Below, piece after piece: positions 36,409 to 37,581 of a stretch of DNA of 64,000 nt. The position numbers and the translations under genes are program-made. Numbering within the stretch: the first letter of the stretch is position 1; every line of letters starts with the position of its first letter. The notes under the pieces were generated by a model. The model saw only the letters and a program-made list of their open reading frames with translations, had not been told where the DNA came from and ran no database searches. The stretch lies in the NCBI GenBank assembly GCA_022827625.1, contig JAJEIE010000027.1, forward strand, positions 238,827 to 302,826, written 5' to 3'. Source of the DNA: Candidatus Poribacteria bacterium. Lineage in GTDB: Bacteria > Poribacteria > WGA-4E > WGA-3G.

Positions 36409-36606
36409 ATGTTAGGAGCAAAACAACAGTGGTGTCCTCGCTGCCAAAGACACGTACAAACAGAGCAGAAGCAGTCTCATATTGGCAAACAACGGAAACT
36501 CGTCAAAATTGTTGTTACCTGCGGTAGGTGTCGAATAACGTTATCAAGCAAAACAACGAGTGCAGCTGCGCTTGAACAGGATCAAAACGCTGCAGCTGAA
36601 AAATAG
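36409..36606 (+). CDS. Small zinc-ribbon protein
   Basis: 65-aa protein with two Cys pairs, CPRC (residues about 9-12) and CGRC (about 40-43), separated by a Lys/Gln-rich stretch and followed by an Ala/Gln/Glu-rich tail. This is the pattern of a one-domain zinc ribbon, as found in nucleic-acid-binding or metal-sensing small proteins. AAGGAG lies 6 nt before ATG 36409. An open frame extends back to 36187 through mnmE and is not used. It lies between mnmE and the selenoprotein gene, probably in one transcript. Function unknown. Confidence 0.7.
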   Translation: MLGAKQQWCPRCQRHVQTEQKQSHIGKQRKLVKIVVTCGRCRITLSSKTTSAAALEQDQNAAAEK

Positions 36607-36657
36607 TAATGGAATTTTGGATTAGCGCATTTATCTAACACAAAAGGAGAGAGAATT

Positions 36658-37581
36658 ATGTTTAAGCCCGTTTTTCACCGGACTGCCGCATATCTGACAG
36701 GACTCATCATTCTGTTGCTGATCGTTGGCACAGTCCCGGCGCGCGTCGCGAGTGAAGAGATCCAGTGGCGTGAATCCGTAGAGGTCACCTTGGAGGAAGC
36801 CGAGAAGACCAGTAAACCTATCATGATGGACTTCTATACCGATTGGTGAGGGTGGTGTAAGCGGCTGGATGCCGAAACGTTTACAGATGCAAATATCGTC
36901 ACACTCGCTGAGAATTTTATTTCTGTCAAAGTCAATCCGGAAGATACAGAACGTCCCATCAATGAGGAGATGCGTAGCCGCTACGGAGTCGCTGGTTATC
37001 CTGCGGTTTTGTTTGTGAGTCCGGACGGCGGACTTATCAAATCTCACTCAGGCTTCCTACCGCCTGACCAATTTGCACCGGTTATGGAAGATGCCTTGAA
37101 AATAGAGGCTCAGTTCCAAGAAAAACTGGAGAAATTGGAAGCGAAACCCAATGATGGCAAACTCAACGCTGAGGTCGCACTCATCTATTTGGAACGCAAG
37201 CAGTTGGAAAAAGGCGTTCTGTTCACTGAGAAAGCGTTTGAATACGATCCGAAAAACAGGTCGAAACTCATTCCGAAATTGCACAACCAGTTGGGACTCA
37301 CTTACGGCATGCTCCTTGAAACCGCCGATGCTGAGAAGGCAGAGGAATATTTTGAAAAGTCGGTTTCTCACTTCAAAGTGCTGATAGACAAGTATCCGAA
37401 CAGTGATCTCTATGAACCGGCGCAATATTACCTCGGCGTGACCTACGCCATTAAAGAACATTATACGGACGCGATTGCTGTACTTGAGAACCTCTCACAT
37501 CACGCGACTGATAGAAATATCAGGCAAAACGCTGAGGCGATGCTCGAACGGGTCAAAGATTTGGCAAACGCTGATAAATAG
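36658..37581 (+). CDS. Candidate selenoprotein: secreted thioredoxin-like protein with TPR repeats, UGA at codon 64
   Basis: 307-aa product when the in-frame TGA at 36847-36849 is read as selenocysteine. Residues 1-31 are a signal peptide. Residues about 38-150 are a thioredoxin-like domain with redox motif Sec64-Gly-Trp-Cys67 in DFYTDW-U-GWCKRLDAETF and cis-proline in VAGYPAVLF (Pro115). Residues about 165-300 are TPR repeats (AEVALIYLERKQLEKG and AQYYLGVTYAIKEHYTDAI). The family normally has DWCGWCK, so the UGA replaces exactly the attacking cysteine, and the frame is intact on both sides. A hairpin follows at 36857-36884. AAGGAG precedes the ATG. Alternatively it is a nonsense-mutated pseudogene, but the intact rest argues against this. 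selA, selB and selC are not in the window. Confidence 0.8.
36857..36884 (+). other. SECIS-like hairpin downstream of the in-frame UGA
   Basis: Seven nt after the UGA, outer stem GTAAG (36857-36861)/TTTAC (36880-36884, one G-U) and inner stem CGGC (36862-36865)/GCCG (36871-36874) enclose the loop TGGAT, with a 5-nt bulge on the 3' side. The apical loop lies 17-21 nt after the UGA, in the range known for bacterial SECIS elements. The structure is read by eye and not energy-scored. Confidence 0.5.

Follow-up and report, generated by a model that had tools for sequence, protein, structure and literature searches.

The window analysed here is a 64,000-nucleotide stretch of contig JAJEIE010000027.1 (assembly GCA_022827625.1) from a member of Candidatus Poribacteria, an uncultured and largely sponge-associated phylum. 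Table 1 presents an overview of the features at one locus of its forward strand, where a gene of 307 codons ends in a TAG at 37579-37581 and carries, as the sole interruption of its reading frame, a TGA at residue 64. The initial annotation had described a frame open on either side of this single TGA and read it as a thioredoxin-like selenoprotein with a tail of tetratricopeptide repeats (here Trx-TPR), and the frame is as described. Translated across the codon, the motif is DFYTDW-U-GWCKRLD. Standard annotation would split the gene in two. Elsewhere in the window, seven of the 40 long open reading frames (ORFs) terminate in TGA, so the codon is an ordinary stop here, as had also been noted at the outset, and a general recoding of UGA is rejected.

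The gene lies in an order common to many poribacterial loci, namely yidC, mnmE, a small gene with two CxxC motifs, the Trx-TPR gene and rluB. No function can be read from these neighbours. The small gene (36409-36606), which lies directly upstream, is zinc-ribbon-like in its paired CxxC motifs and keeps its position in many poribacterial loci.

Table 1. Features of the Trx-TPR selenoprotein locus, in window coordinates, with the basis of each assignment.
Feature	Position	Strand	Basis
Ribosome-binding site AAGGAG, 8 nt 5' of the ATG	36644..36649	+	Read from the sequence
Selenoprotein gene, 307 residues	36658..37581	+	Reading frame and TGA-containing homologues
N-terminal hydrophobic segment, probable signal peptide, residues 1-31	36658..36750	+	By eye and model
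Thioredoxin domain, residues 36-145	36763..37092	+	Pfam, PDB sequence matches, model and fold search
UGA codon for Sec64, nucleophile position	36847..36849	+	Reading frame and relatives
TGT codon for Cys67, second residue of UxxC	36856..36858	+	Invariant in relatives
Possible full SECIS with lower stem 36856-36860 / 36881-36885	36856..36885	+	Weaker support for the lower stem
Conserved SECIS-like hairpin CGGC-UGGAU-GCCG	36862..36874	+	RNAalifold, pair counts, invariant CTG, low synonymous change
TPR-like helical tail, residues 161-306	37138..37575	+	Pfam TPR_2 below cut-off, model helices, designed TPR protein

Conservation of the UGA codon and of the protein beyond it

Homologues were sought among 60 related genomes, including 50 of the same order as the window genome. 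All 50 members of the order carry the gene with its internal TGA, as does a more distant member of the class (G052). In each of the 51 extracted sequences a cysteine codon stands three codons beyond the TGA, and the residues LDA come after it; this cysteine, Cys67, is likewise invariant in two further alignments (A2 and A3). Across the phylum, a genome search placed the family in 73 of 85 genomes. Among the matches listed that cover the site, all have TGA with the exception of one distant paralogue in genome G047, while the remaining matches lacking the TGA lie downstream of the site.

The comparison with other phyla brings out the identity of the residue. TGA occupies this codon in 55 of 55 named public poribacterial loci, whereas among 25 loci drawn from other phyla (Spirochaetes, Planctomycetes, Omnitrophota, Melainabacteria, Eisenbacteria and others) 24 have TGC or TGT at the aligned codon, thereby supplying the Cys/UGA pairs that the initial annotation had looked to in homologues. 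One locus on the cysteine side, L153, is divergent at this point, with GAA at the aligned position, and was omitted from the maximum-likelihood tree. That tree, which has long outgroup branches and an arbitrary root, separates all selenocysteine proteins from the rest by a branch supported at 99/99. Judged by the codon at this site, the core poribacterial lineage keeps the selenocysteine form and other phyla use cysteine. Since no reversion to cysteine was observed among the orthologues from more than 70 species, the family is a natural setting in which to ask at what point selenium can no longer easily be replaced.

The possibility that the TGA is a true stop has to be weighed against this pattern. 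Such a stop could reflect a sequencing error, a nonsense mutation, or truncation followed by re-initiation at the internal ATG at 36970, from which a mechanical ORF call does give an ORF of 203 residues. A misread TGC or TGT, which would have overturned the original proposal, is ruled out because dozens of genomes, each assembled independently, share the TGA. Nor does a nonsense mutation or re-initiation sit well with the same TGA in every genome of the order, with the invariance of Cys67 and LDA downstream of it, or with the selection acting on the intervening codons. From 201 pairs of proteins that are 70-97% identical, dN/dS was 0.145 for codons 31-63, 0.162 for the tail and 0.167 for codons 65-103, the interval between the UGA and the first ATG after it. 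The stretch beyond the UGA and upstream of the ATG at 36970 is therefore under purifying selection as protein, and, as judged from these substitution patterns, translation continues through the UGA. A true stop is thus extremely improbable, and both a pseudogene and a sequencing error were considered and rejected.

Selenocysteine machinery and the hairpin downstream of the UGA

All four components named in the initial annotation as prerequisites or checks are encoded in the window's genome. These are SelA, SelB with its winged-helix domains, a tRNA-Sec with anticodon UCA that adjoins selB, and SelD, which has an in-frame TGA of its own. Most related genomes also possess SelA, SelB, tRNA-Sec and SelD. 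The gene occurs without a detected tRNA-Sec in G024, G030, G033, G034 and G042, and without a full selA in genomes such as G004, G012, G030, G034 and G049; in these few metagenome-assembled genomes the missing components are probably assembly gaps.

A hairpin had also been drawn downstream of the UGA, at 36857-36884. Although this structure can form in the present sequence, it folds no better than many shuffled versions (z of -1.06), and as drawn it is without covariation in relatives; it was rejected as the conserved SECIS. Part of the proposal stands nonetheless, since a shorter conserved hairpin lies inside it. RNAalifold, applied to 48 sequences, predicted a single hairpin (columns 17-27) around UGGAU. 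Together with one additional pair this hairpin is 96% paired, and in several sequences one G-C is replaced by A-U on both sides, the covariation being confined to that one pair. Synonymous change is reduced at codons 65-80 (pS of 0.293, against 0.46-0.50 in other regions past the signal segment). Leu70 is encoded by CTG in 51 of 51 sequences, while codon use is mixed at 14 other conserved leucine columns and the cysteine homologues use five different codons for the equivalent leucine. By these comparative measures an RNA hairpin is under constraint.

The published model of bacterial SECIS elements calls for a loop of 3-9 nt, a stem of 4-16 bp, a spacing of 16-37 nt, a G within the first two loop positions and a minimum free energy of -7.5 kcal/mol or lower (PMC13188914). 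The conserved hairpin agrees with the geometry of the model: its loop, UGGAU, has G as the second base, and its 4 bp stem and its spacing of 16 nt both lie at the minimum. Taken alone it folds at -5.5 kcal/mol, weaker than the limit, and the whole region reaches -9.6 kcal/mol in another pairing. On this comparison the hairpin is SECIS-like and fits most of the published model. Two other genes of the same genome have a hairpin with a G-rich loop downstream of their UGA: selD (L076, G000:C40), where the GGG loop is as far from the UGA as in the Trx-TPR gene, and a formate-dehydrogenase-like gene with the motif UHAP (L184, G000:C40:29886-30626), where the loop is GGUCU.

A reading of the UGA as another amino acid, either cysteine through a suppressor tRNA or tryptophan through near-cognate read-through, would draw on the fact that cysteine is the homologous residue elsewhere. 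It is very improbable, given a genome that encodes SelA, SelB, SelD and a UCA tRNA-Sec, that uses UGA as a stop in other genes, and whose identified UGA genes place the codon at redox positions; the SECIS-like constraint downstream of the codon argues against it as well. Selenocysteine, by contrast, is almost certainly the residue inserted at the UGA, into an active thioredoxin-TPR protein. Insertion directed by SelB is strongly supported by the comparative evidence: SelB with Sec-tRNA(Sec) would bind the conserved hairpin in the mRNA, and selenocysteine would be inserted at the UGA. The selenoprotein reading of the initial annotation thus has behind it both the machinery and the Cys/UGA pairs.

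Protein architecture and probable role

Over residues 31-161, Pfam matches are to Thioredoxin_7, DsbH-type and Thioredoxin_2 families, with PF13899 (54.4 bits) and PF03190 (50.7 bits) above the gathering score of 27 in each case. An AlphaFold2 model with a mean pLDDT of 90.9 presents a thioredoxin fold followed by helical hairpins, and the best matches in a fold search were DsbH and the C-terminal domain of DsbD (2ju5, 2fwg and 1vrs). The thioredoxin fold proposed at first is borne out. In the model, residue 64 directly precedes helix 65-74, which is the usual position of the nucleophile, and, with cysteine at this site in the homologues of other phyla, the placement of the UGA at the attacking cysteine agrees with the original proposal. 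Two further parts of that proposal are upheld in part. For the TPR tail, the model provides the helical repeats, while the Pfam TPR_2 match of 25.3 bits falls just under the cut-off of 27. The signal peptide is probable from a hydrophobic N-terminal segment recognised by eye and a modelled helix at residues 10-23, with low model confidence at residues 1-9 and 23-32.

By virtue of the hydrophobic segment, the protein is presumed to be exported and to reside outside the cytoplasm. From the model and by analogy with its nearest structural relatives, it probably serves there as a thiol-disulfide reductase of the DsbH/DsbD-gamma type, with the TPR tail binding partners; the invariance of the UxxC motif suggests redox turnover. 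In chemical terms, Sec64, just before the active-site helix, would attack as the nucleophile and Cys67 would resolve the selenenyl-sulfide, as is expected from what is established for thioredoxin-family proteins. The physiological role is probably exported thiol-disulfide exchange, with a chaperone-like or peroxidase role also possible.

The chaperone-like alternative takes YbbN (CnoX) as its model, since this protein, in which a thioredoxin domain is likewise followed by helical repeats, appears further down among the fold matches, where a designed TPR protein is also found (E of 1.5e-3). YbbN is cytoplasmic and is not known to contain selenocysteine. It superposes poorly over the whole length (rmsd of 21.7) and is only 12% identical, whereas for the thioredoxin domain DsbH and DsbD-gamma agree in both sequence and structure; the invariant UxxC also speaks for a reductase. 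A mainly chaperone-like function is accordingly unlikely beside the DsbH/DsbD-gamma-type reductase.

Related families and other candidate selenoprotein genes

Several known proteins resemble the Trx-TPR selenoprotein in part. DsbH and the DsbD gamma domain, which are also among the best matches by sequence, have the same fold, but the solved proteins carry cysteine in place of selenocysteine and are without the TPR tail. In the NCBIfam collection the best match is TsoB (NF045694), to whose C-terminal DsbD-gamma-like end residues 8-145 align with 86 bits against a curated cut-off of 805; TsoB is distinguished by a rhodanese/DsbD architecture and a UxxxxU motif, both of which the Trx-TPR selenoprotein lacks. 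The Trx7/PDZ selenoprotein model (NF041199) gave 23.7 bits against a curated cut-off of 300, and the protein reaches the cut-off of no NCBIfam model. A 2026 inventory comprises 119 prokaryotic selenoprotein families and subfamilies, including UxxC thioredoxin-like entries (PMC13188914). Its thioredoxin-like members include a TlpA-family selenoprotein, which combines an AhpC-TSA/TlpA-type domain with UGC where the present protein combines Thioredoxin_7 with UxxC, and a PF13098 thiol:disulfide interchange selenoprotein (WP_011366075.1), which is also of the Thioredoxin_2 type with selenocysteine first in UxxC (both in its Table 1). The entry for the latter gives no TPR tail and does not name Poribacteria, and it is set apart by description only; the inventory as a whole describes no TPR-tailed family and makes no mention of Poribacteria. 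A literature search limited largely to open-access journal papers found none on Poribacteria and selenoproteins, and for Poribacteria and selenium no paper was on topic by its title or the start of its abstract. We rate Trx-TPR as a new selenoprotein family of a known kind. The list of selenoproteins thereby gains a family that nearly all members of one phylum's core lineage possess.

In the same genome, at least eight other genes have an in-frame UGA at redox positions. They come from searches with a few redox families and were read one by one, SelD alone being tested in relatives. Besides selD and the formate-dehydrogenase-like gene, they include a two-domain peroxiredoxin with a UGA at each peroxidatic-cysteine position (DFTGGUTAE and DFGTGUTAE; L179, G000:C33:193900-195900) and three AhpC-TSA-type (Prx-like) genes with an active-site UGA in the motifs GTUANC (L180, G000 C14:171227), TWUPNS (L181, G000 C11:101951) and VWUPFC (L182, G000 C33:125490). 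A TlpA-type gene with UGC in the motif WGSWUGC encodes a TPR-like helical tail at the C terminus (L183, G000:C31:193169-193498). Lastly, a Thioredoxin_7 gene has two in-frame UGA codons (FRUVPUESC) followed by PDZ-like sequence (L185, G000:C21:188523-188774); it is similar to the known Trx7/PDZ selenoproteins but for the second UGA.

This selenium-rich gene set makes Poribacteria promising for further selenoprotein families. The balance tips slightly towards a broader reading, in which Poribacteria would be rich in selenium without having been recognised as such, the core lineage of the phylum relying on a selenium-based and largely exported redox set made up of Trx-TPR, the TlpA-type UGC protein, the two-Sec peroxiredoxin, the Prx-like selenoproteins and the double-UGA Trx7 protein. 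The selA and selB genes are reported to be enriched in sponge symbionts (PMC5649159). The Trx-TPR protein supplies a concrete product for this enrichment, and the selenium-rich reading, if true, would help to explain it.

Within the phylum, some genomes carry a second Trx-TPR selenoprotein copy (L108, L122 and L126), with the motifs DSUDFC and DSUYWC. Genome G047 has a long, distant paralogue with cysteine at the site (TDLCYWC; L166, G047:C6), which forms a Cys/Sec pair within one genome.
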